Positions 3,001-28,194 of a stretch of DNA of 64,000 bases are shown piece after piece. Under the pieces are notes generated by a model. That model did no database searches. It saw nothing but the letters and a program-made list of their open reading frames with translations, and was not told where the DNA came from. The stretch lies in NCBI RefSeq assembly GCF_029867415.1, contig NW_026706269.1, positions 124,001 through 188,000 on the forward strand. Reading direction: 5' to 3'. Numbering within the stretch: the stretch's first letter is position 1; every line of letters begins with the position of its first letter. Made by a program: the position numbers and the translations under genes. This stretch comes from Vicia villosa. Lineage: Eukaryota > Streptophyta > Magnoliopsida > Fabales > Fabaceae.

Positions 3001-3595
3001 TCGGAGGTGTAGAACGCCTTTATGTTGGTACGAATCTGGCGAAGGTGCTGTGATTGGGCCGGAAATTGTTCAGGAGACAACAGAAAGGATTAAGATGATT
3101 CAGGAGAAGATGAAGACTTCTCAGAGTCGGCAGAAGAGTTATCATGATAAAAGAAGGAGGACACTTGAATTTCAAGAAGGAGATCATGTGTTCTTGAGGG
3201 TGACTCCTACAATTGGTGTTGGTAGAGAACTGAAGTCAAGGAAGTTGACTCCGCGTTTTATTGGTCCGTTTCAAATTACGGAGAGGGTTGGAGAAGTGGC
3301 GTATCGCATTGCGTTGCCACCGACACTTGCGAATTTGCATGATGTGTTCCATGTATCGTAGTTGAGGAAATACATTGCTGATCCATCTCATGTGATCCAA
3401 GTCGATGATGTACAGGTAAAAGATAATCTGACAGTTGAAACTATGCCTATGAGGATTGAAGATCGGAAGGTGAAACAATTGCGTGGCAAGGAGATAGCAT
3501 TAGTCAGAGTGGCTTGGGGAGGACCAGCCGGTGGAAATGTTACGTGGGAATTGGAGAGCCAGATGAAGGACTCCTACCCGGAACTCTTTGCCTAA
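2..3595 (+). pseudogene. Tekay-1 gag (partial)-pol polyprotein with one nonsense codon
   Basis: This encodes the Gag C-terminus and Pol of a chromovirus; the frame is already open at the window edge. Three CCHC zinc knuckles occupy about 8..165. Protease follows, with the active-site triad reading DTR instead of DTG (about 292..300). RT has the FIDD catalytic box near 1262..1275. RNase H has CDAS near 1708, DLELAA near 1816 and FSDH near 1889. The integrase HHCC region is near 2344..2475 and the SDRDPRF core near 2740. The C-terminus (about 3440..3592) resembles the Tekay chromodomain, which in this family is thought to guide insertion. A TAG at 3359..3361 replaces the glutamine that related Tekay-D (CAG) and Tekay-E (CAA) keep; the frame continues open to 3595. 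The DTR change and the stop make this copy unlikely to be autonomous. Confidence 0.92.
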
Positions 3596-3624
3596 GGTAT
3601 GTTTTCGAGGACGAAAACTTTTCT

Positions 3625-3637
3625 AGTGGGGGAGAGT
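3625..3637 (+). other. Polypurine tract of Tekay-1
   Basis: AGTGGGGGAGAG lies directly before the TGTAACACC start of the 3' LTR. This is the plus-strand primer position in LTR retrotransposons. The same tract is seen in inverse at Tekay-E (62021..62036). Confidence 0.85.
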
Positions 3638-6568: not shown

Positions 6569-9500
6569 TCATTCTGGGCATAAATCCATACTGATATTCT
6601 TCAGAATGAACTTAAACCTATCTTCAGCAAGGGGTTTTGTAAAGATATCAGCCCATTGATGGTCTGTATCCACAAAGTTTAAAGATATAACACCCTTCTG
6701 AACATAGTCCCTTATGAAATGATGTTTAATCTCAATATGTTTAGCTTTTGAATGTAAAATAGGATTCTTAGATAAACATATAGCAGAAGTATTATCACAG
6801 AAAATAGGAATGTTACTCTCATATATCTGATAATCTTCCAGCTGACTTCTCATCCAGAGCATTTGTGTGCTACAACCAGCAGCAGCAACATATTCTGCTT
6901 CTGTTGTTGAGAGGGCAATAGTAGCTTGCTTCTTGCTGTACCATGAAATCAGATGACTTCCAAGAAATTGACAACTTCCAGAAGTGCTCTTTCTTTCTAT
7001 TCTATCTCCAGCATAGTCAGCATCACAGAATCCTACTAAGTTGTAATCTTTAGATCTTCTGTAAACTAAACCAACATTAGTAGTACCTTTCAGATACCTT
7101 AGAATTCTCTTAACCGCTGTTAAATGAGATTCTCTCGGATCTGATTGGAATCGAGCACACAAACAAACACTAAAGAGAATGTCAGGTCTAGAAGCAGTTA
7201 GATATAGAAGAGATCTAATCATACCTCTGTACAACTTCTGATCTACCTTCTTACTTACCTCATCCTTACCCAGTACACATGTTGGATGCATAGGAGTTTT
7301 GGCTTCTTTGCTTTCAGAAAGATTAAACTTCTTCAGAAGTTTTTTCACATACTTCGTTTGATGAACATAGGTTCCATCGGAAGTTTGGTTGATTTGAATC
7401 CCAAGGAAATACTTGAGTTCTCCCATCATGCTCATTTCAAATTCAGCCTGCATAGACTCAGCAAACTCCTTTCCAAGTGTAGCATTAGATGTTCCAAAGA
7501 TAATATCATCAACATATATTTGACAAATTAAAATATCCTTTTTAAATGTTTTACAAAAGAGAGTAGTGTCCACCTTTCCTCTAGTGAAATCATTTTCCAG
7601 AAGGAAAGAACTCAAACGTTCATACCAAGCTCTGGGAGCTTGTTTCAATCCGTAGAATGATTTCTTTAATTTGAAAACATGATTTGGAGACATGGAGTCT
7701 TCAAAACCAGGAGGTTGGTGAACATAAACTTCTTCATCTATATAACCATTTAAGAAGGCACTCTTGACATCCATCTGATAAAGAGTGATGTTGTGTTGAG
7801 TGGCAAAAGAAATTAATAGACGAATAGATTCTAACCTGGCCACTGGTGCAAAGGTTTCTGTATAATCAATCCCTTCTTGCTGACTATAACCCTGAGCAAC
7901 CAGTCTGGCTTTGTTTCTTACCATTTCACCTTTCTCACTTAGCTTGTTTCTAAAAACCCACTTAGTACCGATGATGTTAAATCCTTTTGGTCTAGGAACC
8001 AAGTCCCATACATCATTCCTTTTAAACTGATTTAGTTCTTCTTGCATGGCAATTATCCAGTCTGGATCTTCTAGAGCTTGATCAACAGAAGTTGGCTCTA
8101 TCAAAGAAACAAGACCTAATTGACATTCTGCATTGTTCTTAAGGAATGCCCTTGTTCTGATAGGATCATCTTTCTTCCCAAGAATCACATCTTCTGAATG
8201 AGCTGAAGCAAGTCTAGGTGATCTTCTGACTGTAGGTTCTTCAGAGATTCTCAGATTCTCTAAAGATGCAGCAGCTTGATCTTCCGATTCATTGCTTCTG
8301 AGACTGCCAGCTTCTGCAGCTTTGCTTCTTGGTTCTACTGCTTCTGATATATCAATATCAAAATCTGCAAAATTCTCAAACTGCTTTGGTTTTTCAAGAC
8401 CAAGCTTATCATCAAACCTGATATTGATTGATTCTTCTACAATCAATGTTTCAGTATTGTATACTCTGTAGCCTTTAGAGCGTTCAGAATATCCAAGAAG
8501 GAAACATTTTTGTGCTTTGGAATCAAACTTACCAAGATGATCCTTAGTATTCAGAATAAAACATACACATCCAAAAGGATGGAAATATGAAATGTTGGGC
8601 TTTCTGTTCTTCCACAATTCATAAGGAGTCTTATTTAGAATAGGTCTGATAGAGATTCTATTCTGAATATAGCATGCAGTGTTAATTGCTTCTGCCCATA
8701 AATGCTTAGCCATATTGGTTTCATTGATCATGGTTCTGGCCATTTCTTGTAGAGTCCTATTCTTTCGCTCTACAACTCCATTTTGCTGTGGAGTTCTAGG
8801 ACAAGAGAAATCATGGGCAATACCATTTTCTTTGAAGAACTCCTCAAAGAATTTGTTCTCAAATTCACCACCATGATCACTTCTGACCTTTATGATCTTG
8901 CACTCTTTCTCAGATTGAATCTGAGTGCAGAATTCAAAGAACACTGAATGAGACTCATCCTTGTGTTTCAAGAACTTTACCCAAGTCCAGCGGCTATAAT
9001 CATCAATGATGACTAATCCATATTTCTTCCCTCTGACAGATGCTGTTTTGACTGGGCCAAACAGATCAATGTGCAAGAGTTCTAACGGCCTTGAGGTAGA
9101 AACAACATTCTTAGACTTGAATGCAGGTCTGGAGAACTTGCCCTTCTGACATGCTTCACAAAGAGCATCTGATTTGTATTTCAGATTTGGGAGTCCTCTG
9201 ACCAGATTTAGTTTGTTAATCTGAGAAATCTTTCTCAAACTAGCATGTCCTAATCTTCTGTGCCAGACCCATTGCTCTTCAGAAACAGACATAAGACAAG
9301 TCACCTTCTGCTTCTTAAGATCAGAAAGATCAATCTTATAAATGTTGTTCTTCCTCTTGCCTGTAAATAGGATTGAGCCATCCTTCTGACTTACAGCCTT
9401 GCAAGACTTTTGATTGAAGATTATATCATAACCATTGTCACTTAATTGACTTATGGACAATAAGTTATGCGTTAATCCTTCTACAAGAAGTACATTAGTT

Positions 9501-9703
9501 ATGGAAGGAGAGTTACCAAGACTTATGGTTCCAGAGCCAATGATTTTGCCCTTCTGATCTCCTCCAAACTTGACTTCTCCACCTGGTTTAAGCACCAGGT
9601 CTTGGAATGTAGACCTTCTTCCCGTCATGTGTCGCAAGCACCCAGAGTCCAGGTACCATGACATTTTGCTTTCTGTCCTCTTTGCCGCCAAGGATATCTG
9701 CAA
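6569..9703 (-). CDS. Sire-A pol: protease, integrase, RT, RNase H
   Basis: This 1044-codon open frame has no stop or frameshift. Domains in order: protease with LDSGCLRHMTG (about residues 17..29; the residue after DSGC is usually serine in such elements, here leucine); GAG-pre-integrase HRRLGHAS; integrase with HIDLFGP, RSDHGGEF and PQQNGVVERKNR; a hinge rich in Ser and Glu; RT with [20 protein letters not shown] and YVDDIIFG; and RNase H with CDADYAG and STTEAEY. The start shown is simply where the frame opens (TTG). The frame overlaps the end of gag and is +1 relative to it, so expression probably needs frameshifting. The protein makes cDNA and integrates it into host chromatin. RGMIRSLLY differs from the RGMIGSLLY seen in Sire-C. 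Confidence 0.93.
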   Translation of the reverse strand: MQISLAAKRTESKMSWYLDSGCLRHMTGRRSTFQDLVLKPGGEVKFGGDQKGKIIGSGTISLGNSPSITNVLLVEGLTHNLLSISQLSDNGYDIIFNQKSCKAVSQKDGSILFTGKRKNNIYKIDLSDLKKQKVTCLMSVSEEQWVWHRRLGHASLRKISQINKLNLVRGLPNLKYKSDALCEACQKGKFSRPAFKSKNVVSTSRPLELLHIDLFGPVKTASVRGKKYGLVIIDDYSRWTWVKFLKHKDESHSVFFEFCTQIQSEKECKIIKVRSDHGGEFENKFFEEFFKENGIAHDFSCPRTPQQNGVVERKNRTLQEMARTMINETNMAKHLWAEAINTACYIQNRISIRPILNKTPYELWKNRKPNISYFHPFGCVCFILNTKDHLGKFDSKAQKCFLLGYSERSKGYRVYNTETLIVEESINIRFDDKLGLEKPKQFENFADFDIDISEAVEPRSKAAEAGSLRSNESEDQAAASLENLRISEEPTVRRSPRLASAHSEDVILGKKDDPIRTRAFLKNNAECQLGLVSLIEPTSVDQALEDPDWIIAMQEELNQFKRNDVWDLVPRPKGFNIIGTKWVFRNKLSEKGEMVRNKARLVAQGYSQQEGIDYTETFAPVARLESIRLLISFATQHNITLYQMDVKSAFLNGYIDEEVYVHQPPGFEDSMSPNHVFKLKKSFYGLKQAPRAWYERLSSFLLENDFTRGKVDTTLFCKTFKKDILICQIYVDDIIFGTSNATLGKEFAESMQAEFEMSMMGELKYFLGIQINQTSDGTYVHQTKYVKKLLKKFNLSESKEAKTPMHPTCVLGKDEVSKKVDQKLYRGMIRSLLYLTASRPDILFSVCLCARFQSDPRESHLTAVKRILRYLKGTTNVGLVYRRSKDYNLVGFCDADYAGDRIERKSTSGSCQFLGSHLISWYSKKQATIALSTTEAEYVAAAGCSTQMLWMRSQLEDYQIYESNIPIFCDNTSAICLSKNPILHSKAKHIEIKHHFIRDYVQKGVISLNFVDTDHQWADIFTKPLAEDRFKFILKNISMDLCPE

Positions 9704-11117
9704 CAGAAATTATCTTCTCCTTAGGTACCCACAATTTCTTGGGTCCTTTCTTGTTAGTTCTCCTCAAGTTCTGATTGAACTTGGGTTTAGCAAAATATTT
9801 AGCAGGAGGAACAGTATGATACTTCTTATTCTGAGTTCCATGATATTTCTTAGGTTGTGTCACATGCTTCTTGGTGTGTGTTATGTGAAAACTTTGTGCA
9901 TGTGATGTGTGCTTAATATCATGGGAGTGGCCAAATTTAAATTGGTTATACAGAGGCTTGTATGATATTTTCATATCATCCACAGATTCAAGCTTGTATG
10001 GGATTTCACCCTCATAACCAATGCCAACTCTCTTGTTCCCAGACACAGCATATATCATAGAAGCTAGCTGACTTCTGCCAATACTTCTAGATAAGAACTT
10101 CCTGAAACTTAAATCATATTCTTTCAGAATATGATTCAGACTGGGAGTGGATTTTTCTGAATCAGAAGGAGATCCAACATTATTGGATAATTTTAAAACT
10201 TTTTCTTTTAATTCAGAATTTTCCAACTAAAGCTTCTTAGTTTCAAATTCAAATTGCTTTTTCAGCTTTTTGTATTTGATACTAAGATGAGCTTTTAATT
10301 CAAGAAGCTCTGTTAGACTGGAAACTAACTCTTCTCTAGATAGTTCAGAAAATACCTCTTCAGAATCTGATTCTGATGTAGATTCTGATCCATCATCTTC
10401 TGTCGCCATCAGCGTAAAGTTTGCCTGCTCTCCTTCAGTGTCTGATCCTGATTCTGATTCAGAATCATCCCATGTTGCCATAAGACCTTTCTTCTTATGA
10501 AACTTCTTCTTGGGATTCTCCTTCTGAAGTTTTGGACACTCGTTCTTGTAATGTCCAGGCTCATTGCACTCATAGCAGACAACCTTCTTCTTGTCAGATC
10601 TTCTGTCACCAGAAGATTCTCCACGTTCAAATCTCTTTGAACTTCTGAAGCCTCTGAACTTCCTTTGCTTGCTCTTCCAGAGTTGGTTCACCCTTCTGGA
10701 GATCATGGACAGTTCATCTTCTTCTTCAGATTCTGATTCTTCAGGATCTTCTTCTCTAGCCTGAAAAGCGTTAGTGCATTTTTTAATATTAGATTTTAAT
10801 GCAATAGACTTACCTTTCTTCTGAGGCTCGTTTGCGTCCAGCTCAATTTCGTGGCTTCTCAAGGAACTGATCAGCTCTTCCAAAGAAACTTCATTCAGAT
10901 TCTTCGCAATCTTGAATGCAGTCACCATTGGGCCCCATCTTCTGGGCAAACTTCTGATGATCTTCTTTACATGATCAGCCTTGGTGTAGCCTTTGTCCAG
11001 AACTCTTAATCCAGCAGTCAGAGTTTGAAATCTTGAAAACATCTTCTCAATATCTTCATCATCCTCCATCTTGAAGGCTTCATATTTCTGGATTAGAGCA
11101 AGAGCTTTAGTCTCCTT
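9588..11117 (-). pseudogene. Sire-A gag, C-terminal part, with a nonsense codon
   Basis: This continues the gag reading that starts at 20801 on the other side of Sire-B. It encodes the capsid-like region (MEDDEDIEKMF onward), an acidic Ser/Glu stretch, a CCHC zinc knuckle CYECNEPGHYKNEC near 10535..10576, a second acidic stretch, and a basic tail with His-Thr repeats. A TAG at 10227..10229 replaces a glutamate that Sire-B retains (GAG in B). After it the frame is open to 9588. The protein is about 90 percent identical by eye to Sire-B Gag. The end overlaps pol by 116 bases. Gag would form the cytoplasmic virus-like particle. Confidence 0.9.
9687..9692 (-). other. Candidate +1 shift site CTT-GGC in Sire-A gag/pol overlap
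   Basis: CTT GGC are in-frame gag codons inside the 116-base window where gag and pol both are open. The same place in Sire-B reads CTT GGT (14239..14244). The yeast Ty1 shift site begins CUU, so slippage from CUU to UUG is conceivable. This is a hypothesis, not a demonstrated site. Confidence 0.25.
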
Positions 11118-11122
11118 GACTT
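11118..11122 (+). repeat. Left target-site duplication GACTT of Sire-B
   Basis: GACTT precedes the LTR start TGTTAGAAC and is repeated at 20406..20410 directly after the 3' LTR end. It lies within the gag codons of Sire-A. Confidence 0.95.
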
Positions 11123-11702
11123 TGTTAGAACAAGATTTGTTCTGATCAATTATCTTAGTTTTGATGATAACAATAATATGAATTTTGCTTAAGATAACAT
11201 GGTACTCTAATCCAATGCAATTTCCCTTTCAGGAAATATATATATAGAGTACGCATAATTCAGCGCTCAGAAGCTTTGTCTCAAGGGTTCAGCATGCAAC
11301 ATCAGAACATGATCTGGCAAGACATCAGAAGATGGTCGAAGCAGTATCAGAACATGGGTCTATGAAAGCATCAGAAGAACATGAGATCAGAAGCACTGAA
11401 GCTCAGAAGATGGTATCACGCTCAGAAGCACTTAAAGGTCAGAAGATCAGAAGATGCTATGCACCAAGCTGTTTGACTCTGATGATATTCAAACGTTGTA
11501 TTCACAAACATCAGATCAGAAGGAAGTACAGGTGGCAAGCTACGCTGACTGACAAAAGGAACGTTAAAAGCTATTAAAGGCTACGTCAGTAGACACAGCG
11601 TGAACAAGGCTCGAGGTAGTTGACAAAAGCGTATAACATTAAATGCGATGCTGTACGGAACACGCAAAGCATTAAATGCATTCAACGGTCATCTTCTCAA
11701 CG

Positions 11703-11713
11703 CCTATAAATAT
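11703..11713 (+). promoter_or_regulatory. TATA box of the Sire-B LTR
   Basis: CCTATAAATAT fits a plant TATA box and lies about 580 bp into the LTR. Transcription would start near 11735, so the hairpin array downstream would be in the RNA leader. The copy in the 3' LTR is at about 19777..19787. Confidence 0.65.
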
Positions 11714-11951
11714 GAAGTTCTGATGAGAAGCAAGGTTAACGATACTGAACAATACAATTCAAATTAACTTGCTGAAACTCTGTTCAAATCAAAAGCTCAG
11801 AATCTTCATCTTCATCAAAGCTCACTACATTGCTTTTGTAATATTTTAGTGAGATTAAGCTTAAACGTTAAGAGAAATATCACAGTTGTGATTATCGCTT
11901 TTAAGAAGCATTTGTAAACTCTTAGAATTGATTACATTAAGTTGTAAGGAA

Positions 11952-12135
11952 CTAGAGTGATCGTGTTGATCAGAATACTCTAGGAAGTCTTAGGAGTGAA
12001 CTAAGCAGATTGTAACTAGAGTGATCGTGTTGATCAGTAGACTCTAGAAAAGTCTTAGAGGGTATCTAAGCAGTTGTTCCTGGAGTGATCAGTGTGTGAT
12101 CAGAAGACTCTGGAAGACTTAGTTGCGGACTAAGT
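11952..12135 (+). repeat. Three 64-bp units, each with two potential hairpins, in R/U5 of Sire-B
   Basis: Units start at 11952, 12016 and 12080. In each unit a long arm pair (CTAGAGT with ACTCTAG, or CTGGAGT with ACTCTGG) is followed by a short stem (CTTAG with CTAAG). Positions: 11952..11983, 11989..12005, 12016..12047, 12054..12070, 12080..12113, 12117..12135. The array is also present in the 3' LTR (shift 8074). Sire-A has the same architecture at 21082..21269 with changed loops and a compensatory pair. Confidence 0.85.
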
Positions 12136-12333
12136 GGAAAACCATTGTAATCCGTGCGATTAGTGGATTAAATCCTCAGTTGAGGTAAATCATCTCTGCG
12201 GGGGTGGACTGGAGTAGTTTAGTTAACAACGAACCAGGATAAAAATAACTGTGCAATTTATTTTTATCTGTCAAGTTTTTAAAGATACACTTATTCAAAC
12301 CCCCCCTTTCTAAGTGTTTTTCTATCCTTCAAT

Positions 12334-12350
12334 TGGTATCTGAGCGCCGG
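12334..12350 (+). other. Primer-binding site of Sire-B
   Basis: TGGTATCTGAGCGCC starts two bases after the LTR end. It resembles the TGGTATCAGAGC complement of plant initiator methionine tRNA, with one mismatch. The same site in Sire-A reads TTGGCATCAGAGCGCC. Confidence 0.85.
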
Positions 12351-12417
12351 TTCTAAGGTGCAAGCACTTAACCGTGTTTAGAAAAGATTCAGGAAGAGAA
12401 AAACGCTTCAGTAAAAG

Positions 12418-14343
12418 ATGGTTGATGAAAGTGAAAAGTCTACACCTACACCTGCATCTACATCTGGCTCTGCTGAGCAATACAACGGTAACAATGGTTA
12501 TACTAGACCGCCGGTATTTGATGGTGAAAACTTTGAATACTGGAAAGATAAACTGGAAAGTTACTTTCTTGGTCTAGATGGTGATCTATGGGATCTTCTG
12601 ATGGATGGTTACAAATATCCAGTAAATGCCAGTGGCGTAAAGCTGTCTAGGCAAGAAATGAATGATGATCAGAAGAAGCTTTTCAGGAATCATCATAAAT
12701 GCAGAACTGTTTTGCTGAATGCTATCTCTCATGCTGAGTATGAGAAGATATCTAACAGGGAAACGGCCTATGACATATATGAGTCCTTGAAAATGACTCA
12801 TGAAGGAAACGCTCAAGTCAAGGAGACCAAAGCTCTAGCTTTAATCCAGAAGTATGAAGCCTTCAAGATGGAGGATGATGAAGACATTGAAAAGATGTTT
12901 TCAAGATTTCAAACTCTTACTGCTGGATTGAGAGTTCTTGACAAGGGATACACCAAGGCTGATCATGTAAAGAAGATCATCAGAAGCTTACCCAGAAGAT
13001 GGGGTCCTATGGTGACTGCATTCAAGATTGCAAAGAATCTGAATGAAGTTTCTCTGGAAGAGCTTATCAGTGCCTTGAGAAGTCATGAAATAGAGCTGGA
13101 CGCAAATGAGCCTCAAAAGAAAGGTAAGTCTATTGCATTAAAATCAAATATCAAGAAATGCACTAACGCTTTTCAGGCTAGAGAAGAAGATCCTGAAGAA
13201 TCAGAATCTGAAGAAGAAGATGAACTGTCCTTAATCTCCAGAAGGCTAAATCAACTCTGGAAGACCAAGCAAAGGAAGTTCAGAGGCTTCAGAAGTTCAA
13301 AGAAATTTGAACGTGGAGAATCTTCTGATGATAGAAGATTTGACAAGAAAAAGGTCATGTGCTATGAATGCAATGAGCCTGGACACTACAAGAATGAATG
13401 TCCAAATCTTCAGAAGGAAAATCCCAAGAAGAAGTTTCATAAGAAGAAAAGTCTTATGGCAACCTGGGATGAGTCAGAAGATGATTCAGACTCTGAAGAT
13501 GAGCAGGCCAACTGTGCGCTGATGGCGACAGAAGATGACGGATCAGAATCTACATCAGAATCAGATTCTGAAGAGGTATTTTCTGAACTTACTAGAGATG
13601 AGTTAGTTTCCGGTCTAACTGAACTTCTGGAACTCAAGTCTCAGATTAGTCTCAAATACAAAAAGCTGAAAAAGCAATTTGAATTTGAAACAAAGAAGCT
13701 TGAGTTGGAGAATTCTGAATTAAAAGAAAAACTTTTAAAATCATCCAATAATGTTGGATCTCCTTCTGATTCAGAAAAATCCACTCCTAGTCTAAACCAT
13801 ATTCTGAAAGAATATGATTTAAGTTTCAGGAAGTTCTTATCTAGAAGTATTGGCAGAAGTCAGCTAGCTTCTATGATATATGCTGTGTCTGGAAACAAAA
13901 GAGTAGGCATTGGTTTTGAGGGTGAAACCCCATACAAACTTGAACCTGTTGATGAAATGAAAACCACATACAAGCCATTGTATGATCAGTTCAAGTATGG
14001 CCACTCTCATGATATTAGGCACACTTCACATGCTCAAAGCTTTCACATAACACACACCAAAAAGCATGTGACACAACCTAGGAAATATCATGAAACTCAC
14101 ATTAAAAATTATCATGCTGTTCCTCCTATTGCTTACAATGTTAAACCTAAGTTCAATCAGAACTTGAGGAGAACTAACAAGAAAGGACCCAAGAAAATGT
14201 GGGTACCAAAGAAAAAGACTATTTCTTTTGCAGATTCTCTTGGTGACAAAGAAGATAAAAGTCAACATGACATGTCTCCTGGACTCAAGTTGGTCTCAAC
14301 ACTTGAAGGGAAGAAAGATTGTCTTTCAAGTTCTGATTCTTAA
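12418..14343 (+). CDS. Sire-B Gag (641 aa, intact)
   Basis: Gag is the capsid and RNA-packaging protein. The start ATG lies 86 bp after the LTR. The N-terminal part has FDGENFEYWKDKLESYF (about residues 34..50), the usual plant copia Gag opening, followed by a UBN2-like capsid region to about residue 215. Then come an acidic Ser/Glu stretch, the zinc knuckle CYECNEPGHYKNEC (about residues 315..328), a second acidic region, a likely coiled coil (KLELENSELKEKLLK), and a basic C-terminus with His-Thr repeats. No stop interrupts it, unlike Sire-A gag. The C-terminal codons overlap a remnant of protease in the +1 frame. An intact gag in a pol-less element suggests selection or very recent descent. 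Confidence 0.95.
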   Translation: MVDESEKSTPTPASTSGSAEQYNGNNGYTRPPVFDGENFEYWKDKLESYFLGLDGDLWDLLMDGYKYPVNASGVKLSRQEMNDDQKKLFRNHHKCRTVLLNAISHAEYEKISNRETAYDIYESLKMTHEGNAQVKETKALALIQKYEAFKMEDDEDIEKMFSRFQTLTAGLRVLDKGYTKADHVKKIIRSLPRRWGPMVTAFKIAKNLNEVSLEELISALRSHEIELDANEPQKKGKSIALKSNIKKCTNAFQAREEDPEESESEEEDELSLISRRLNQLWKTKQRKFRGFRSSKKFERGESSDDRRFDKKKVMCYECNEPGHYKNECPNLQKENPKKKFHKKKSLMATWDESEDDSDSEDEQANCALMATEDDGSESTSESDSEEVFSELTRDELVSGLTELLELKSQISLKYKKLKKQFEFETKKLELENSELKEKLLKSSNNVGSPSDSEKSTPSLNHILKEYDLSFRKFLSRSIGRSQLASMIYAVSGNKRVGIGFEGETPYKLEPVDEMKTTYKPLYDQFKYGHSHDIRHTSHAQSFHITHTKKHVTQPRKYHETHIKNYHAVPPIAYNVKPKFNQNLRRTNKKGPKKMWVPKKKTISFADSLGDKEDKSQHDMSPGLKLVSTLEGKKDCLSSSDS

Positions 14344-14752
14344 ATCTGTTGAAGAAACTATGTTTGTAGGAATTCAGAAAAGGAAGTTTATTAGTCTTGG
14401 AACCATCTGTTTTGTTTGTCTCTAAAGCATTGATGTTTCTTTCTTGATTATTCTGAATGCTCTAAATGCTACAGAATATACAACATTGAAACATTGATTG
14501 TGGACAAATCAATAAACATCTGTTTTGATGATAAACTTGTTTCTGATGAAACAAGAGCTTAAGAATTTCTGCAGATACAGTTTTGTCTTATCAGAAGCTG
14601 CAGAACAAAGAAGTGAACCTCCAGAAGCTGTGTATATCAGAAGTAATGGATCAGAAGATCATTCAAATTTATATCAACACACTTCAGAAGAAGTGTTTCC
14701 AGAAGAGAAAGTTGATCAGATCAGAAGCAGTGATCTAAATCTGAAGGCGTAA
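14228..14752 (+). pseudogene. Sire-B pol remnant: protease start fused to integrase tail and hinge
   Basis: In the +1 frame relative to gag, 14228..14410 aligns with the Sire-A protease start, but the active-site block reads LLDSSWSQHLKG instead of LDSGC..HMTG. Near 14410..14422 the sequence jumps to the part of Sire-A coding for YRVYNTETLIVEESINI, and continues into the hinge (SEAAEQRSE) to about 14752. Integrase core, RT and RNase H are absent. Several stops and frame changes follow, so no enzyme can be made. Confidence 0.88.
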
Positions 14753-14984
14753 AATCTCTCTGATATTTACAGCTGTCATCTATTATCTGATGGTGAACAC
14801 TTGTCTGTACGGTTTGTACAAAGCGTGCAGTTGAAAAGACGCCGACCTAGGTAACTGTTTCAAATCATTTCATTTACCACGTTCTCTCTCCTCACGTCAC
14901 TCATCATTTAATAAAATTGATTTCCTTTGATTCTGGAACTGATCAATTTATATTTCTTATTATTTTTTTCTTTTCAAATCCGTC

Positions 14985-14995
14985 TCTATATATTC
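14985..14995 (+). promoter_or_regulatory. Possible internal TATA box before Sire-B ORF3
   Basis: TCTATATATTC lies about 150 bp before the ORF3 ATG and is followed by a CT-rich leader (about 15020..15060). Sire-C has CTATATATTA about 100 bp before its ORF3. An internal promoter making a subgenomic ORF3 mRNA is inferred, not shown. Confidence 0.4.
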
Positions 14996-15144
14996 TTTTC
15001 AAATCATATCGTACATCTTTTTCGCTCCTTTGTCTCTCTCTCTCCTTGCATTCTCTCGTTTGAAAAGTTCTTAGCCGTTTTCTAAAAACCCTAATCGAAA
15101 ACCCAGTTCGCTTCTCTTGCTCGTTTTTTTGTCATTCTGCATCA

Positions 15145-17886
15145 ATGGCTGCATTCTCATCCCAAAATGCTGAGTCATCTGTTCCTCATCATCTCCAAGA
15201 AGAAACGTTGCAACTTACTCCTGTTGTTGCATGCTCTATTCCCAAGAACAAATTAGAAGTTCTATGTGAACTTATTGTTGTCTTTGACAACCTTGAAGAA
15301 CATGGATTTAATCTTAAAGAAGACATCATCATTCAAGGATGGACCTCGTTGTTTGCTGAGTTCGTTGGCCCAGTTTATCCAGATCTTGTCAAGGAGTTCT
15401 GGGCACATGCTGTGGTTGCTCCAAAATCAATACTTTCTTTCGTCCATGGAAAGTTTGTTGTTATTACTGAAAACATCCTTAGAGTGATGTTTGATTTGAA
15501 GAACGCGGAAGGAGTTTTTGAAATCGATAAAAGGGAAGATTGGGAAGAGGTTCTATCCACTCTCTATTCAAATGTCAAGAAAACAAAACACGTCAAGGAG
15601 TTGAGAGATATCTACAAAATCTGGACAAAGATCATTCTTGGGTGCTTCTACCATAGGAAAGCGACACATGCCGCTGACTTCATAAACAATGAGCAAAAAT
15701 ATATTCTTTATTGCATTGCCACTCAGAAGAAGGTTGATGTGGTTTACATTATCTTCAACCATATGTGGAAAGCAGTAAAAGATTCCAGAAACGCTTTCAG
15801 AAAAGAAAATGGTGGAACAATCATTCCTTTTGGTAGAATCATTACAAACCTTCTGGTGCATTCCAAGATTGTTGAGAGTCTGGAATCTGAAGGTATTGTG
15901 AAAGACCTTGCTGTCACATCTGGGGCTTGTCTGAACGCATTCACTTTAAAGAGGATGAACGTGATTAAGGCTATCATTAAGACTCCTCAACCTCTTGCTG
16001 GAACAACAATCAGAAGAGAGCCAGTTCTAGCTGAATTCAAAACCTTCTTCAATAGTGAGGTACCACAAGTCAGAACTAAGTATCTGAAATCACAAAAAGA
16101 GGATAAGAGTCTTAAAGATCAAGACAAAGGTGCTCCTATTAAAGTGAATCGTAAGAAGGAGGAAAGGACCAAAAGAAAGTTTGATCATCCTGCTGCTACC
16201 ACCAATAAAGAAGTGATCCCAGAAGAAGTGATTGCAAAGGCTGTTAAGGCTGTCTCTGCTGATTTTGAGAAGAAAAAGAAGGAAGCTGAGAAAAAGAAGA
16301 AGAAGTCAAATAACAATGCTGAAGTTGTTGAAGTTGTTGAGAAGAAGAAAATCAGAAAAAGGAAGATGATTATTCAAAGCTCAGATGAAGAAAATGCTGC
16401 TCAAGAGGCTGAGAATCAACCAGAAGTTCTGGCTTATGTCAGAAGGAAAGAAATCGCTAGCGGCAAAGCAAAGGTTATTGAAGAGCCGAAGAGTAAGAAG
16501 CAGAAAAAGACTGAGGATGTGGCCAAAGCTTTTCTGAGAGGTTCCAAAGGTATATGCATTTCTGAACCTAATTCTGTTCCTGCTGTTTGTTCAGAAGCTG
16601 CACCAATAGAGATTGTCCCTAAACCTGAACCAGAAAAAGCCACATCAGAATCACCTGTTTTTGTCCATGTTCTTACACCTCCATCTTCTCCTTTAACTAT
16701 TCCTTCCTCTCCACCTACCATAAATCCTGTTCTGGATATACCACCCCTTCAAACTCTCCTTCCATCTCAACCTTCTCTCAACGCTACTCTTGAACATACT
16801 CCCTCCACCTCTCAAAATAATCCTTGTGATTCTCCTTTTCCAACCTCTGCATCACATGAGCAGCTGCTCCGTGATTGCAACTACACTCCCAAGCCTCGTC
16901 CTGAAGCTGAAGTGGTAGTGTTAGATTCTGATACTGAAGCAGAATCTTCTTATAGGTTGGATAGAGAACCTCATCCGTACTTCACTTCCAAACCTGCCTT
17001 CTCAAAAACCCAAATAAACTCCCGCCCCGTATATCCTATTGGTGTAGTTTTTGAAAACATAAAGAGGAATCTCAGAAGTACCTTTGATACTCTCAGACTC
17101 GCTGAAAGTTCTGGATTGAATGATGTTGCTATGCGGAACTTCTGGAGGATCTTTCGCAGAGAATCAGATGCTCTGTTTTTAGAACTTCAGGAAGCCTGTG
17201 TAGCTGCTGCCCCACGGCCTCGTGGAATTCTGAGGAATTATGAAGACTTCTGGTTTGCTCGTCTCAAAGGAAGATATCTTTTGGAAGAGAAGCCCTTCTT
17301 GGATGAGATGGAACAATTAAGACTCGCTGCTGCATTGGAAGCAAATCCTTGCAGGGAGATTGTGGTTTGGATACCTCAATATCCTGTTCTGCTCGGAGAT
17401 TTCAAGACTCTCTTTGACTATCTGAGGGAAAACCCGTCTGAGAAAGATCCAAACTTGGTCATCCCAGAAGTTGTTGACCCACCAGTAGTTGAAGGTCCTT
17501 CTGCTCCAAGGAATCTAGCTGCTATTCTTCAGGCACTTGAGAATGGAGACTCGGAAATTCCTGCTGCAGAATATGGAGATGCTTCTATGCAAGAAGCAGA
17601 TGCTGAAGATCATGTTGCCAAAACTGTTCCTGTTGAGGAAATCCCTGCAAATGATCTATCCATGGAAGCTACAGATCAAGCTGCCATTCCTGTGGTTGAA
17701 AGCGGTGAAGCTTCTTCTGATGAATCTTCTCGTCTTGCAAGGACTCTAAAAGAAATTCAGAAGAGACAGGATGAGCAAAGCTCACTCAATGATCAGTACA
17801 GTGCTTTCATGGTGAGGCAAGAAGGACACAATAATATGGTTCAAGAGATGCTGACCAAGATCTTGTCAAGACTAGGGCCATCTTAG
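15145..17886 (+). CDS. Sire-B ORF3: large protein with plant-transposon-protein-like N-terminus
   Basis: This 913-codon intact ORF lies downstream of the pol position. Residues about 40..280 resemble the domain found in plant proteins labelled putative plant transposon protein. The block GPVYPDLVKEFWAHAVV (about 75..91) aligns with GPFYPDAEKEFYAHFHI of Sire-C ORF3, and a later VDVVYIIFNHMWKAV..PFGRIITNLL pattern also matches. A lysine-rich stretch (about 335..470) holds possible nuclear localisation signals. A proline-rich segment follows (about 515..600), and a heptad-like C-terminus (about 865..910) could be a coiled coil. No signal peptide or clear membrane segment is visible, so an envelope role, often suggested for sirevirus third ORFs, is not supported. 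Function unknown. Confidence 0.85.
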   Translation: MAAFSSQNAESSVPHHLQEETLQLTPVVACSIPKNKLEVLCELIVVFDNLEEHGFNLKEDIIIQGWTSLFAEFVGPVYPDLVKEFWAHAVVAPKSILSFVHGKFVVITENILRVMFDLKNAEGVFEIDKREDWEEVLSTLYSNVKKTKHVKELRDIYKIWTKIILGCFYHRKATHAADFINNEQKYILYCIATQKKVDVVYIIFNHMWKAVKDSRNAFRKENGGTIIPFGRIITNLLVHSKIVESLESEGIVKDLAVTSGACLNAFTLKRMNVIKAIIKTPQPLAGTTIRREPVLAEFKTFFNSEVPQVRTKYLKSQKEDKSLKDQDKGAPIKVNRKKEERTKRKFDHPAATTNKEVIPEEVIAKAVKAVSADFEKKKKEAEKKKKKSNNNAEVVEVVEKKKIRKRKMIIQSSDEENAAQEAENQPEVLAYVRRKEIASGKAKVIEEPKSKKQKKTEDVAKAFLRGSKGICISEPNSVPAVCSEAAPIEIVPKPEPEKATSESPVFVHVLTPPSSPLTIPSSPPTINPVLDIPPLQTLLPSQPSLNATLEHTPSTSQNNPCDSPFPTSASHEQLLRDCNYTPKPRPEAEVVVLDSDTEAESSYRLDREPHPYFTSKPAFSKTQINSRPVYPIGVVFENIKRNLRSTFDTLRLAESSGLNDVAMRNFWRIFRRESDALFLELQEACVAAAPRPRGILRNYEDFWFARLKGRYLLEEKPFLDEMEQLRLAAALEANPCREIVVWIPQYPVLLGDFKTLFDYLRENPSEKDPNLVIPEVVDPPVVEGPSAPRNLAAILQALENGDSEIPAAEYGDASMQEADAEDHVAKTVPVEEIPANDLSMEATDQAAIPVVESGEASSDESSRLARTLKEIQKRQDEQSSLNDQYSAFMVRQEGHNNMVQEMLTKILSRLGPS

Positions 17887-18073
17887 ATTGAGTCTGTGTT
17901 GTTTCTTTCCTTTCGTTGCATCTGTCTTTGTGCATCTGATCTTTCTTATCTTCATGTACTTCTGTACCTGTTGTTTGCACTTCAATGAAATCGTCTTCTT
18001 TCTCCGTGTGTTTCATTTTATTTGTCGTTTTATGCATCTAAATCTTTTGAAATATTCTTTTTGATGTTATGAC

Positions 18074-18089
18074 AAAAAGGGGGAGAAGA
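18074..18089 (+). other. Upstream polypurine-tract-like sequence of Sire-B
   Basis: AAAAAGGGGGAGAAGA repeats the tract found directly before the 3' LTR (19184..19196) but lies about 1.1 kb upstream. Repeated polypurine tracts are a reported trait of sireviruses. Confidence 0.6.
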
Positions 18090-18352
18090 TAAATGATAAA
18101 TGATTTGATTAATCTATCAGTTGCTGGGTAAAGCTCCCACACATTCACTAACAAGAACTGCAAGTTCTACATGGTTTAAGTGTTTTGCAGGTATAAAGAA
18201 GTGAAGAAAATCTTCAAAGCAAAAAGCAAACACAAGAAGCAAAACCATGGAAACTGAAGCAAGCCGAGTGCTGTCAAGCTTCAGAGATCAGAAGCAAGAA
18301 AGAAGAATGAATCGGAAGCACTGATGATAGAATTTGATCCATATTTGTCTAT

Positions 18353-18470
18353 TTGATCTGACAAAATTCTATTTGCTCTGATACATATAATGTTATGGCT
18401 CTGATACATTATTTGCTCTGATACATTATTTCAGCCTATATGGCTTTGATACATATAATGTGTTCAAACA
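18353..18470 (+). repeat. Short dispersed repeats GCTCTGATACAT in Sire-B 3' region
   Basis: The motif TCTGATACAT(A)TA occurs about four times between 18353 and 18470, in non-coding DNA after ORF3. Meaning unknown. Confidence 0.6.
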
Positions 18471-18626
18471 TATATTTTATGTTCTAACTCGTTCATGCTG
18501 ACTTTTGTCGTTTAGTGTTTGTTCTGTAACATTTCAGGATGTAGAGATGCTCAGATGATGCTCTGGTACATTCAACAATGTTCTGATACAAATCTAGCAT
18601 GAAGTGATGTTGGTAGAAATTCAAAG

Positions 18627-18960
18627 CTCTGAAGCTATCCGAGGGAAGCAGAAATCAGAAGCTGCGAATGTTCTAAAGATCCAGAAAACTCAAGTTCTGA
18701 AGCTGTCCTGAATGGAAGCAGAAATCAGAAGCTGTGAATGTTCAGAAGATCAAAGAAATTCAAGTTCTGAAGCTGTCCTGAATGGAAGCAGAAATCAGAA
18801 GCTGTGAATGTTCAGAAGATCAAAGAAATTCAAGTTCTGAAGCTGTCCTAGATGGAAGCAGGAATCAGAAGCTGTGAGTGTTCTAAGGATCTAAGGAAAT
18901 TCTAGTTCTGAAGCTGTCCTATGGAAGCAGAAGTCAGAAGCTATGAATTCTCTGAAGACA
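18627..18960 (+). repeat. Tandem repeat, about 70-bp unit, 4.8 copies
   Basis: Units begin at the motif TTCTGAAGCT at about 18627, 18695, 18765, 18835 and 18906, giving periods of 68, 70, 70 and 71. Each contains AATCAGAAGCTGTGAATGTT-like sequence. It lies between ORF3 and the 3' LTR. Confidence 0.9.
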
Positions 18961-19031
18961 AGAAGCTTATATGATCGTCTCTACCGAAATAATCAGGGAA
19001 GTCTTTTATTAAAGTTCTTCGAGTATTTATT

Positions 19032-19090
19032 TCAGGGGGAGATTATTTATCTCAGGGGGAGATTGTTAATCTCAGGGGGAGACATATTCA
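19032..19090 (+). repeat. Three 20-bp tandem copies of a polypurine/LTR-start mimic
   Basis: TCAGGGGGAGA occurs at 19032, 19052 and 19072 with an exact 20-bp period. The middle copy reads GGGGGAGATTGTT, matching the true tract-LTR junction before 19197. These could be alternative plus-strand priming sites. Confidence 0.85.
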
Positions 19091-19183
19091 TATGCTTATG
19101 CTATAGCTGTGTAATTTGTCTTTTGCCAACTGTTCTTTCTGATCGCAAATTCATATCATTTATATATGTTTTTGTCATCATCA

Positions 19184-19196
19184 AAAAGGGGGAGAT
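19184..19196 (+). other. Polypurine tract of Sire-B
   Basis: AAAAAGGGGGAGA ends one base before the TGTTAGAAC start of the 3' LTR, the expected plus-strand primer site. Confidence 0.9.
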
Positions 19197-20405
19197 TGTT
19201 AGAACAAGATTTGTTCTGATCAATTATCTTAGTTTTGATGATAACAATAATATGAATTTTGCTTAAGATAACATGGTACTCTAATCCAATGCAATTTCCC
19301 TTTCAGGAAATATATATATAGAGTACGCATAATTCAGCGCTCAGAAGCTTTGTCTCAAGGGTTCAGCATGCAACATCAGAACATGATCTGGCAAGACATC
19401 AGAAGATGGTCGAAGCAGTATCAGAACATGGGTCTATGAAAGCATCAGAAGAACATGAGATCAGAAGCACTGAAGCTCAGAAGATGGTATCACGCTCAGA
19501 AGCACTTAAAGGTCAGAAGATCAGAAGATGCTATGCACCAAGCTGTTTGACTCTGATGATATTCAAACGTTGTATTCACAAACATCAGATCAGAAGGAAG
19601 TACAGGTGGCAAGCTACGCTGACTGACAAAAGGAACGTTAAAAGCTATTAAAGGCTACGTCAGTAGACACAGCGTGAACAAGGCTCGAGGTAGTTGACAA
19701 AAGCGTATAACATTAAATGCGATGCTGTACGGAACACGCAAAGCATTAAATGCATTCAACGGCCATCTTCTCAACGCCTATAAATATGAAGTTCTGATGA
19801 GAAGCAAGGTTAACGATACTGAACAATACAATTCAAATTAACTTGCTGAAACTCTGTTCAAATCAAAAGCTCAGAATCTTCATCTTCATCAAAGCTCACT
19901 ACATTGCTTTTGTAATATTTTAGTGAGATTAAGCTTAAACGTTAAGAGAAATATCACAGTTGTGATTATCGCTTTTAAGAAGCATTTGTAAACTCTTAGA
20001 ATTGATTACATTAAGTTGTAAGGAACTAGAGTGATCGTGTTGATCAGAATACTCTAGGAAGTCTTAGGAGTGAACTAAGCAGATTGTAACTAGAGTGATC
20101 GTGTTGATCAGTAGACTCTAGAAAAGTCTTAGAGGGTATCTAAGCAGTTGTTCCTGGAGTGATCAGTGTGTGATCAGAAGACTCTGGAAGACTTAGTTGC
20201 GGACTAAGTGGAAAACCATTGTAATCCGTGCGATTAGTGGATTAAATCCTCAGTTGAGGTAAATCATCTCTGCGGGGGTGGACTGGAGTAGTTTAGTTAA
20301 CAACGAACCAGGATAAAAATAACTGTGCAATTTATTTTTATCTGTCAAGTTTTTAAAGATACACTTATTCAAACCCCCCCTTTCTAAGTGTTTTTCTATC
20401 CTTCA
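19197..20405 (+). repeat. 3' LTR of Sire-B
   Basis: It has the same length and ends as the 5' LTR. The single difference is C at 19763 versus T at 11689. It is followed by the target duplication GACTT. Confidence 0.97.
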
Positions 20406-20410
20406 GACTT
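20406..20410 (+). repeat. Right target-site duplication GACTT of Sire-B
   Basis: It matches 11118..11122 exactly and directly follows the 3' LTR end TATCCTTCA. Confidence 0.95.
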
Positions 20411-20801
20411 GAGCATTTCCCTCATGGGTCATTTTCAATGACTCATATATATCATGGGCAGTTTCCCTGTTAGATATCTTCTCATACTCAGCATGAGAGA
20501 TAGCATTCAGCAAAACAGTCCTACATTTATGATGATTCTTGAAATCTTTCTTTTGATCATCAGTCATTTCGCTTCTCGTGAGCCTTACACCAGTAGCTTT
20601 AACAGGATGTTTGTAACCATCCAACAGAAGATCCCATAGATCAGCCTCCAGACCAAGAAAGTAACTTTCCAGTTTATCTTTCCAGTATTCAAAGTTTTCA
20701 CCATCAAATACTGGTGGTCTAGTATAACCATTGTTACCATTGTATTGCTCAGTAGAGCCAGATGTAGATGCAGCTGGATTTGTTGGAACTTCACCAGCCA
20801 T
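20406..20801 (-). pseudogene. Sire-A gag, N-terminal 132 codons
   Basis: It starts ATG at 20801, 87 bp after the 5' LTR, and encodes the FDGENFEYWKDKLESYF opening and the first part of the capsid region. It ends at ...HEGNAQV where Sire-B is inserted. The next codons (KETKALALIQKYE) resume at 11117. The only damage to this half is the insertion itself. Confidence 0.93.
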
Positions 20802-20869
20802 CTTTTACTGAAGCGTTTTTCTCTTCCTGAATCTTTTCTAAACACAGTTAAGTGCTTGCACCTTAGAAC

Positions 20870-20886
20870 CGGCGCTCTGATGCCAA
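20870..20886 (-). other. Primer-binding site of Sire-A
   Basis: On the minus strand TTGGCATCAGAGCGCCGG follows the 5' LTR end. It resembles the complement of initiator methionine tRNA with one mismatch. Confidence 0.8.
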
Positions 20887-20887
20887 T

Positions 20888-22106
20888 TGAAGGATAGAAA
20901 AACACTTAGAAAGGGGGGGTTTGAATAAGTGTAGTCTAAAAACTTGAACGATAAAAACAATATGCACAGTTATTTTTATCCTGGTTCGTTGTTAACTAAA
21001 CTACTCCAGTCCACCCCCACGGAGTGATTTACCTCACCTGGGGATTTAATCCACTAATCGCAACAGATTACAATGGTTTTCCACTTAGTCCGCGACTAAG
21101 TCTTCTAGAGTATCCTGATCACAACCTGATCACTCCAGGAAAAAATGCTTAGACACAAGCTAAGACTTTCTTAGAGTATCCTGACCACCACGTGATCACT
21201 CTAATTACAACTGCTTAGACACAAGCTAAGACTTCCTAGAGTATCCTGATCAACACTTGATCACTCTAGTTACTTACAAATTAATGTAATCAATTCTAAG
21301 AGTATTACAAATGCTTCTGAAAAGCTATAATCACAACAATGATATTTCTCTTAACGTTTAAGCTTAATCTCACTAATATATTACAACAGCAATGTAGTGA
21401 GCTTTGATGAAGATGAAGTTTCTGAGCTTTGAATTTGAACAGCGTTTCAGCAAGTTAATATTCACAGAATTTGGTTCAGAGTTGTTAACCTTGCTTCTCA
21501 TCAGAACTTCATATTTATAGGCGCTTGAGAAGATGACCGTTGGGCGCATTTAATGCTTTGCGTATTCCGTACAACATTGCATTTAATGTTTCACGCTTTT
21601 GTCAACTACCTCGAGCCTTGTTCACGCTGTGTCTACTGACGTTGCCTTTAATAGCTTCCAACGTTCCTTTTGTCAGTCAGCGTAGCCTGCCACCTGTACT
21701 TTCTTCTGATCTGATGTTTGTGAATATAATATTTGAATATCATCAGAGTCAAACAGCTTGGTGCATAGCATCTTCTTGTCTTCTGACCTTGAAGTGCTTC
21801 TGAGCGTGATACCATGAGAACTTCAGTGCTTCTGCTTCTGATCTCAAGTTCTTCTGATGCTTTCATAGACCCATGTTCTGATTCTGCCTTGACCATCTTC
21901 TGATGTCTTGCCAGACCATGTTCTGATGTTGCATGCTGAACCTTTTGAGACAAAGCTTCTGAGCGCTGATTTGTGCATACTCTTTATATATATTTCCTGA
22001 AATGGAAATTGCAATGTATTAGAGTACCACATTATCTCACACAAAATTCATATCCTTGTTATCATCAAAACTAAGAATATTGATCAGAACAAATCTTGTT
22101 CTAACA
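20888..22106 (-). repeat. 5' LTR of Sire-A (1219 bp)
   Basis: On the minus strand it begins TGTTAGAACAAG (at 22106) and ends CTATCCTTCA (at 20888). It is the same family as the Sire-B LTR but differs by many substitutions and indels. It keeps the TATA region (CTATAAATATGAAG near 21507..21520) and the hairpin array. The flank is CATAC (22107..22111); the partner duplication is outside the window. Confidence 0.93.
21082..21269 (-). repeat. Hairpin array in Sire-A LTR, homologous to that of Sire-B
   Basis: Long stems are at 21236..21269, 21171..21204 and 21105..21138; short stems at 21214..21230, 21148..21164 and about 21082..21101. The middle long stem reads TTAGAGT with ACTCTAA where the others read CTAGAGT with ACTCTAG, a compensatory C-G to T-A change. 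The short stems CTTAG/CTAAG are kept while loops differ from Sire-B. Confidence 0.8.
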
Positions 22107-25161: not shown

Positions 25162-26462
25162 TGTAAGTATCATATATGCCTAAGAGGGGGGTGAATTAGG
25201 TACTTTATAATTTTTCAAAAATAATCGGTTTTATGAGAATGTCTTTACTAACTTTTTGGTTAAGTGTTTAAAGGCTTTTGATGGTTTTTATCTTTTTCTT
25301 GGTAATGGTGATGAAAGCGGTAAAAGCGGAAAGATAAAGAACACAACGATATATACTGGTTCCCCTCATAATCCGAGAGTACTTCAGTCCCCTTTCAAAC
25401 ACGAAAGAGATTTCACTATAGTTAGAATGATTGTACAAGCCTATGCCTACTATCTAACCTATAGGGTGATCAAAGGTTCTTAACACCTTTAAGATCAATC
25501 AACACTAATGTGGATGAAGAACAATCCTCTTCAAACACAACACTTACTTCCAACAATCCTGGATAGTAAGGAAAAAGAATTCTTTTGAATTTATACAAGA
25601 GTTTGTGAAGATGAATAATATATCAATCTTGGATTGATCTTCCCTTTCAAGCAATTATCATTGATAGTATAGTGCTCAATGTTTATGATCCATGATATGA
25701 ATTTTTTCTGGACATGTATGGAACACTAATGCAGAAAAAATATCAATGTGAAAGTTTGAATATCAAAGAGCACTTGGTGTGAAATTTGAGAGAATAAAAG
25801 TGTATAATTGCAAAGTGAAAGAGGTAAATATGAAATATGAAAGTGAGGGTATATATAATGTCTTAACACCCCTAGGAATGAGTATGATTCAATGAACAAG
25901 TGCAATGTTTGAGTGAAATAAATTCTGATCCGTATGCACTAAAACACAATGAACAAGTGCTACTATTTTAGTCGCAACGGGTTACGAAAATGTCCGTAAC
26001 TGGTTACGCTATACCGTTGTAGACCAAAATTTGAAAAATGCGTTTTCGTAACCGGTTACACCAAGAACCGTAACCGGTTACGCTGGAAAGAAAAAGGATT
26101 CCAGAAGCAAAAGGGAGTGTGGCTGCGTGACCGTAACCGGTTACGCCTATAACCGTAAGCGGTTACACTGAAGGAAGACACAAAAAATTTGTTTCTTAAG
26201 ACTTCTAAAAATGCCAAGATTTTTTAGAGAAAGGACATAGTGACTTTATGCAATAATGTATGTATTTTGAGCACTATTTTATCAAGATAATAATATGTTT
26301 ATACCTTAACTCCAAAAGTCTTCAAAAGCTTGTTTAAGAAACTTGATGCTATATTGAGACTTGGATTGAATGCTCTTTGAATCTTTTTCTCATCCTTTCT
26401 TGATAGTTAGATATCCATGTTGTCTTCATCAAAACCTTTTGATTGAGAAGCTTGTTTCTACA
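25162..26462 (-). repeat. 3' LTR of Sire-C (1301 bp)
   Basis: On the plus strand it runs TGTAAGTATC to GTTTCTACA, so on the minus strand TGTAGAAAC to GATACTTACA. It holds six copies of a GTAACCGGTTAC-type palindrome (25973..26166). It matches 33637..34429 with about ten visible differences over roughly 790 bp. Confidence 0.92.
25973..26166. promoter_or_regulatory. Three palindrome pairs in U3 of Sire-C LTR
   Basis: Palindrome centres lie at 25979/26001, 26053/26075 and 26138/26160, so each pair has a 22-bp spacing. The consensus CGTAACCGGTTACG is perfect at 26069..26082 and 26132..26145, and near-perfect in the others. The AACCG/CGGTT core resembles MYB-type sites. Binding by a dimeric host factor is inferred. 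Confidence 0.75.
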
Positions 26463-26478
26463 TTCTCCCCCTTTTTGA
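26463..26478 (-). other. Polypurine tract of Sire-C
   Basis: On the minus strand AAAAAGGGGGAGAA lies directly before the TGTAGAAAC start of the 3' LTR. Confidence 0.88.
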
Positions 26479-26935
26479 TGATGACAACCAAGCTTTGAAT
26501 GTTGTTTTTGTTTGAACTTTGTTAAGTAATATGCAAGGCTCCCCCTATGTTGATGACTCCCCCTAAGTCCATGATTCTCTTGAAAATTTGGAGTGAGTCC
26601 ATTTGTCTTTTAACAAAGGCCTGCAAATTTTGAGCAAACAGCATACAGCATACAAGTTTCTTCTCCCCATTTGTTATTATCAAAAAGGATGGGAAAAAGA
26701 AAAGTAAAATATATACCAAATAGTAAACCATACACATATAAAGGATTACCAATACATAGATGATTACCATTAAACCGACGAAGCAATAGGTCTTTTAACA
26801 TTATAAGTAAACCAACTATTTTTGTCTAAAGAAGCAAAATACAACCAACATAGAAACAACATTAAACATAAAAGCATAGAAAGCTAAAGACTTAAACTAA
26901 GAACTAAGAAATAGCATAGATAAAGCAAATATAGA

Positions 26936-28081: not shown

Positions 28082-28182
28082 GGATGAAGCTTTGAAAAGT
28101 TAGGGTTTAGAGATGGTATTTTTGGATTTGGGTGTGTTGGTACCAAATAAGTGATTTTGGAGGAAGTGCTTATTTGGATTTT

Positions 28183-28194
28183 GTAATATATAGG
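28183..28194 (-). promoter_or_regulatory. TATA box before Sire-C ORF3
   Basis: On the minus strand CCTATATATTAC lies about 100 bp before the ORF3 ATG (28081). Sire-B has a near-identical CTATATATT box before its ORF3. The paired palindromes lie about 200 to 320 bp further upstream. Confidence 0.5.

Follow-up and report, generated by a model that had tools for sequence, protein, structure and literature searches.

A young pol-less sirevirus insertion in Vicia villosa with open gag and third reading frames, probably from an old non-autonomous lineage

The 64-kb stretch of Vicia villosa DNA analyzed here (the window; contig NW_026706269.1) carries at positions 11123–20405 a long terminal repeat (LTR) retrotransposon in which gag and a third open reading frame (ORF3) are open and pol is reduced to scraps. 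We consider it likely that this element belongs to an old non-autonomous sirevirus lineage of a vetch-like legume, which lost protease, integrase, reverse transcriptase (RT) and RNase H before the present insertion and still jumps by means of helper enzymes. The RNA of the element would carry all cis signals, namely LTRs, primer-binding site (PBS), polypurine tracts and attachment ends. Its own Gag may be assembled into particles alongside the Gag and Pol of a relative that encodes the enzymes, and these enzymes would then copy and integrate the element. Such shared particles would allow template switching, by which parts of LTR, leader and gag could be swapped between lineages, and ORF3 was probably carried over from the ancestor. 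The original prediction had assigned the missing enzymes to a helper of the type of Sire-A, the neighboring element into which the insertion occurred. Mobilization by outside enzymes has to be assumed, while a Sire-A-like source for them is plausible. The features of the element and of Sire-A are as follows.

6569–22106, minus strand: Sire-A, host element split by the insertion; 5' LTR 20888–22106, gag 20801–20406 plus 11122–9588, pol ORF 9709–6569
11118–11122: left target-site duplication GACTT
11123–20405, plus strand: LTR retrotransposon, structurally complete, 9283 bp, inserted in Sire-A gag in reverse orientation
11123–12331, plus strand: 5' LTR, 1209 bp, TG...CA; a C7 run stops 25 bases short of the LTR end
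12332–12417, plus strand: ATTGG, PBS region TATCTGAGC and leader; one mismatch against the sirevirus TATCAGAGC
12418–14343, plus strand: gag, 641 codons; Retrotran_gag_2 and CCHC knuckle
14220–14414, plus strand: gag end with what is left of the +1 protease frame that overlaps it; DSS for DSG; first deletion junction at about 14404–14414
14404–14726, plus strand: pol remnant covering the end of SH3 and the linker that precedes RT; drift like non-coding DNA
14727–14768: second deletion junction; RT and C-terminal pol gone
14769–14932, plus strand: remnant of the post-pol spacer, common to Sire-A
15145–17886, plus strand: ORF3, 913 codons; PF20167 domain, middle rich in lysine, long helix predicted at the C-terminus
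18078–19196, plus strand: stretch with five copies of the polypurine tract GGGGGAGA, starting at 18079, 19035, 19055, 19075 and 19188, the last adjoining the 3' LTR
18615–18964, plus strand: 70-bp tandem repeats in the linker
19197–20405, plus strand: 3' LTR, 1209 bp
20406–20410: right target-site duplication GACTT

Loss of pol and protease in a young insertion

The LTR pair aligned without gaps and differed at 1 of 1209 bases (a BLAST figure of 1209/1210 arises because one matching T outside the LTR is added), and the GACTT flanks were found intact, both as originally predicted. Substitution rates in the literature lie at about 0.65–1.3e-8 per site per year. At these rates the single LTR difference places the insertion some tens of thousands of years ago. 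The ORF coordinates agreed likewise with the predicted open gag of 641 and open ORF3 of 913 codons.

Using the Sire-A pol ORF (9709–6569, minus strand; Pol_BBD, gag_pre-integrs, rve, SH3 and RVT_2 domains) as reference, three collinear blocks were found to be kept in the element: 14000–14414 corresponding to 9931–9517, 14404–14726 to 8539–8155, and 14769–14932 to 6417–6248. Between the first two, about 0.98 kb is absent, comprising by the domain positions in Sire-A the protease end, gag_pre-integrase, the integrase core and the SH3 start. Between the second and third, about 1.74 kb is absent, comprising the complete RT and, at the C-terminus of pol, the RNase H region; the RNase H label rests on position, because a Pfam search of Sire-A pol returned no RNase H match. 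The three-block alignment agrees with the earlier view of a pol cut to about 500 bp by two deletions relative to Sire-A, with junctions (about 14415 and 14755) that were correct to within tens of bases, and it bears out the claimed loss of RT, integrase core and, by position, RNase H.

The protease was affected in a further way. In Sire-A its active site WYLDSGC is read in the +1 frame across the last 40 or so gag codons. The same frame of the element reads CLLDSSW, i.e., DSS in place of DSG, so that the catalytic motif is lost too, and the change is one of substitution, not solely of deletion. In two database proteins (P0058 and P0059) the gene models jump from mid-gag to WYLDSGC, as from a predicted intron or a deletion.

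Between the remaining pol scrap and Sire-A, 85 of 322 sites differed (Jukes-Cantor distance 0.325) and 5 gap runs occurred; the mismatches were spread evenly over the codon positions (31/108, 27/108, 27/106; p 0.80). The silent-site distance of gag to the same Sire-A copy was 0.334. A divergence of the pol scrap close to that of silent sites would be hard to reach if pol had been lost after the insertion, and the pol deletion thus looks older than this insertion.

The element itself carries no RT, and its class was taken from its relative Sire-A, which has a copia-type RVT_2 domain. Sireviruses are characterized by a junction of the 5' LTR, ATTGG and a 9-bp PBS TATCAGAGC (PMC2829016). The element reads CA/ATTGG/TATCTGAGC at this junction, with one PBS mismatch. 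At the PBS (12337–12345) Sire-A shows a different single mismatch to the consensus, which is odd because each cycle restores the PBS from the tRNA primer. The five copies of the polypurine tract ahead of the 3' LTR correspond to the multiple tracts typical of sireviruses. A poly-C integrase signal of seven C was found 25 bases before the LTR end, compared to a mean distance of 21 bp in sireviruses (PMC2829016). The 641-residue Gag (PF14223, with zf-CCHC at 315–330) is of the large type with a central knuckle, and the +1 pol frame known from many sireviruses is present in Sire-A, where it overlaps gag. Repeated CGG-CCG motifs or a CpG island were not evident in the LTR (4 CGG and 1 CCG on the plus strand, CpG observed/expected 0.62), which does not exclude membership since the wording “RM-containing Sireviruses” in the cited part of the source (PMC2829016) makes these motifs a feature of some members. 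With the pol enzymes absent and the cis signals intact, these features support classification as a non-autonomous Ty1/copia sirevirus.

Gag, its C-terminus and signs of exchange

For Gag, 37 rows were compared, consisting of 35 of the 120 listed matches (129 found), the element and Sire-A. The C-terminus was readable in 24 of them and unreadable in 13; the remaining 85 listed matches were left unclassed. Enzyme-type Gags end with ...PGLW..., where the last two bases of the Trp codon and the next base form the glycine of the protease DSG. PGLW or PGQW was found in every enzyme-type row (12 of 12) and in every outgroup row (4 of 4). All 8 rows with the end type of the element (the element, P0026–P0030, P0032 and P0038) showed PGLK or PGIK. 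By the genetic code, and for an alignment without indels, a Lys codon at the W site cannot supply the glycine of DSG to the +1 frame. The end types were defined by neighboring residues (GKKDC or KKVY), so the Gag end represents one linked block and not a set of independent traits. The 8 rows had a mean pairwise identity of 90% (range 85–94%), and the seven database clusters among them comprise 32 member sequences, with one representative read per cluster. A diverse group of Gags that appear to be protease-dead by sequence therefore exists, and the sharing of the end by seven clusters argues against a deletion confined to one locus. RT and integrase may be lost in these other copies as well. 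In P0038, enzyme-type sequence was found immediately upstream of the PGIK end. If confirmed, PGLK or PGIK versus PGLW at the Gag end would provide a simple marker for counting protease-dead members of the family by their Gag sequence alone.

The dN/dS comparison proposed for gag in the original prediction indicated constraint. Compared to Sire-A, a dN of 0.058 and a dS of 0.334 were obtained (ratio 0.173; 596 codon pairs outside the overlap). Codon pairs holding a stop were skipped, among them an extra codon due to an N-terminal Sire-A piece that was five bases too long, and a possible double count affects one codon within the target-site duplication. Over the final 45 codons of gag, dN was 0.33 and dS 0.64; in Sire-A about 40 of these codons also lie over the protease frame. 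The higher ratio of 0.52 is expected if the overlap constraint is gone, for a small sample. The branch of the element was not accelerated in gag, with private changes of 19 versus 13, 14 versus 18, 19 versus 14 and 22 versus 20 in four tests. The data support purifying selection on Gag at the sequence level.

In the tree of whole Gags the 8 PGLK/PGIK rows fell on one side of a branch (support of 99 in the SH-like approximate likelihood ratio test, SH-aLRT). This grouping was set aside because that tree includes the columns of the trait itself. With the C-terminus removed, joining the 8 rows was rejected (approximately unbiased test, p 0.0016; log-likelihood difference 50.6; 20 rows). The tree of the Gag body (23 rows) needed four changes of end type, with 3–5 over bootstraps, and P0031, which has an enzyme-type end, clustered with five of the eight K-type rows (100/98). 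Gag body and Gag end are thus in conflict. A second indication came from the LTRs, where element and Sire-A differed at 104 of 1204 sites and at 3 of 110 in LTR end and leader, far below silent gag sites (97/360) or the pol scrap (85/322) (p < 1e-14). Both observations suggest exchange of gag body and LTR with enzyme-coding relatives, for which template switching in shared particles would provide a common explanation. If such exchange is confirmed, it would show how satellites of this kind escape decay.

ORF3 and the neighboring elements

ORF3 matched PF20167 (Transposase_32) above the Pfam cut-off, as did gag for Retrotran_gag_2 and zf-CCHC. We rejected a true transposase, which would over-read the Pfam name “putative plant transposon protein”. 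An envelope protein was disfavored as well: no 19-residue window exceeded a hydropathy of 1.6 (best 1.49; no dedicated membrane or signal-peptide predictor was used), and a protein lacking a transmembrane-like window is a poor envelope candidate. One N-glycosylation motif and lysine-rich stretches in the middle of the protein were found. The full-length AlphaFold model was poor (mean predicted local distance difference test score, pLDDT, 33.9), and the C-terminal long helix is predicted in that model. The N-terminal 300 residues were modeled poorly, too (48.6), and were discarded after a PDB search in which 0 of 11 matches reached E <= 0.001. The sole name among the listed relatives of ORF3 was “uncharacterized protein” of Vicia villosa.

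Comparing the element with P0001, its nearest relative and the only partner used in these tests, against three outgroups, 95 versus 36, 85 versus 41 (outgroup P0003) and 80 versus 41 private changes were counted (p 3e-7 to 4e-4). Positions 1–275 held 18 private residues in the element and 0–6 in seven other rows, while residues 481–625 showed no excess (8 versus 9, 7 versus 9, 4 versus 8). The original prediction had ORF3 acting in cis or being useful to the family. The frame is indeed open, but about twice the private changes of the nearest relative (85 versus 41), with no excess in gag, make its usefulness doubtful. In 400 simulations of neutral drift at 0.05 per site without indels, ORF3 stayed free of stops in 0.75% and gag in 2.25%; at 0.1 none did. 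ORF3 is therefore probably not wholly free from selection, relaxed as it looks, and we are aware that the element was noticed for its open ORFs, which favors intact examples.

The following second copia element lies in the window.

25162–34429, minus strand: Sire-B, with direct repeats of 794 bp that are 98.6% alike; gag and pol broken over several frames

Downstream of its pol an ORF (28099–26936) is open and resembles PF20167 with 24.9 bits, below the cut-off of 45. An additional 3' ORF of a sunflower Athila also matches PF20167 and is predicted to be nuclear (PMC11728184). Taken together, both suggest that ORF3 was most likely inherited as a component of the parent element and not acquired, and the shared domain bears on what this unexplained third ORF does. 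In Sire-A the region after pol showed no significant ORF3 homology (best E 0.012; none at E <= 10 with the ORF3 of the window). Its gag (9588–11122 and 20406–20801, minus strand) contains an in-frame stop, though the pol ORF of 1046 codons is open, and a second copy of its LTR was not found in the window. The Sire-A copy seems to be truncated.

Further repeats were recognized by eye. Positions 1–3646, 36326–38116 and 61987–63996 hold related pieces, 72–79% alike, of Ty3/gypsy gag-pol type with CCHC knuckles and RT and integrase motifs. ORFs like fragments of non-LTR (LINE) reverse transcriptase were seen at 48962–49795 (minus strand) and 57353–58877 (plus strand).

Competing explanations and known systems

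Several points weigh against an old helper-dependent lineage that exchanges sequence with its relatives. The DNA evidence consists of one copy within the 64-kb window, and shared junctions are unproven. Pattern matches in viral contigs (5 with ORF3, 33 with gag) and in prokaryote contigs with gag (69) yielded none that was confirmed, and the plasmid collection gave zero matches; these results carry little weight because the collections contain no plant genomes. The pol scrap was compared with one Sire-A copy, and the linker preceding RT may in any case be under weak constraint. The dN/dS of gag averages the branches of element and Sire-A, and ORF3 seems relaxed on the branch of the element, changing about twice as fast as P0001. 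The seven other Gag clusters are represented by protein sequences, and their elements may have kept RT and integrase. With regard to exchange, the well-supported branches of the Gag body tree alone force two type changes only, the low LTR divergence could mean constraint instead, and the database proteins come without species or contig, so that chimeric gene models could mimic recombination. Finally, the Sire-A copy, with its gag stop and single LTR in the window, is no working helper.

We hold it possible, if doubtful, that the history was more specific: a protease-dead lineage may have remodeled its Gag end once the overlap was freed, persisted by exchange of gag and LTR, and possibly become the main carrier of ORF3 in a split genome. 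Somewhat less credit is given to a pure parasite, for which a helper supplies all proteins and Gag and ORF3 are unneeded, open by chance or refreshed by recombination. The apparent exchange of Gag bodies with enzyme-type elements could renew gag without selection, and ORF3 has accumulated changes faster in the element than in P0001. However, all 8 rows retain the lineage-specific Gag C-terminus in frame and in similar form, and neutral drift seldom left the ORFs open in simulations, an argument weakened by the choice of the element for its open ORFs. Cooperation, in which the pol-less lineage gives Gag or ORF3 to complete relatives as in a split genome, is improbable. It was raised by the Athila authors for the same layout (PMC2410132) and would fit a Sire-A copy without significant ORF3 homology after pol next to a pol-less element with an open ORF3. 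On the other hand, this absence may be damage in a seemingly truncated copy, the ORF3-like ORF after pol in Sire-B makes ORF3 look like a normal part of such elements, and ORF3 is less constrained on the branch of the element. That a complete element inserted recently, lost pol afterwards by two deletions and was never mobilized in this form agrees with the one copy visible as DNA, but is very improbable given LTRs with 1 difference in 1209 bases next to a pol scrap 26% off Sire-A, evenly over codon positions and gapped, a C-terminus excluding a working overlapping protease in seven other Gag clusters, and an own protease motif altered by substitution beyond deletion. An old non-autonomous lineage that depends on helper enzymes accordingly remains our preferred explanation.

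Related partnerships are known from several plants. To judge by its title, a study by Du et al. from 2010 reportedly describes autonomous and non-autonomous partners in soybean with LTR swapping between them. Barley RLC_Giselle is a copia element without RT and integrase genes, has a potentially intact gag and is thought to depend on its close autonomous relative RLC_Inga; similarity of the two peaks around the PBS, as in our element and Sire-A (PMC5738225). A third ORF, present in our element, is unmentioned for RLC_Giselle in the account used (PMC5738225). Non-autonomous endogenous pararetroviruses of grasses, which belong to a different virus family, have non-coding regulatory sequences homogenized with those of their partner by recombination (PMC5491270). 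TR-GAG elements are Gag-coding, pol-less LTR elements of plants as well, but gag is described as their sole coding region (PMC11728184), whereas our element adds an open ORF3 of 913 codons and thus falls outside that group.

The combination of gag with a large third ORF had been taken for a distinct design, which does not hold, as the same layout was described in 2008 for Athila families of Arabidopsis: pol-less elements with gag and env, whose two intact ORFs are subject to purifying selection and in which recombination extends into gag (PMC2410132). Athila resembles the element in its LTRs, Gag and third ORF without pol, its young copies and the recombination between families; the purifying selection was reported there for both ORFs (PMC2410132). 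Among the listed titles and abstract openings of the open-access literature on non-autonomous sirevirus and copia elements, no sirevirus with a pol-less layout of gag and ORF3 was found. Athila belongs to Ty3/gypsy, while our element is in all likelihood a Ty1/copia sirevirus with recognizable pol scraps (PMC2410132 for Athila). If confirmed, the pol-less lifestyle with gag and a third ORF would thereby be extended from Athila to the sireviruses of the Ty1/copia type.

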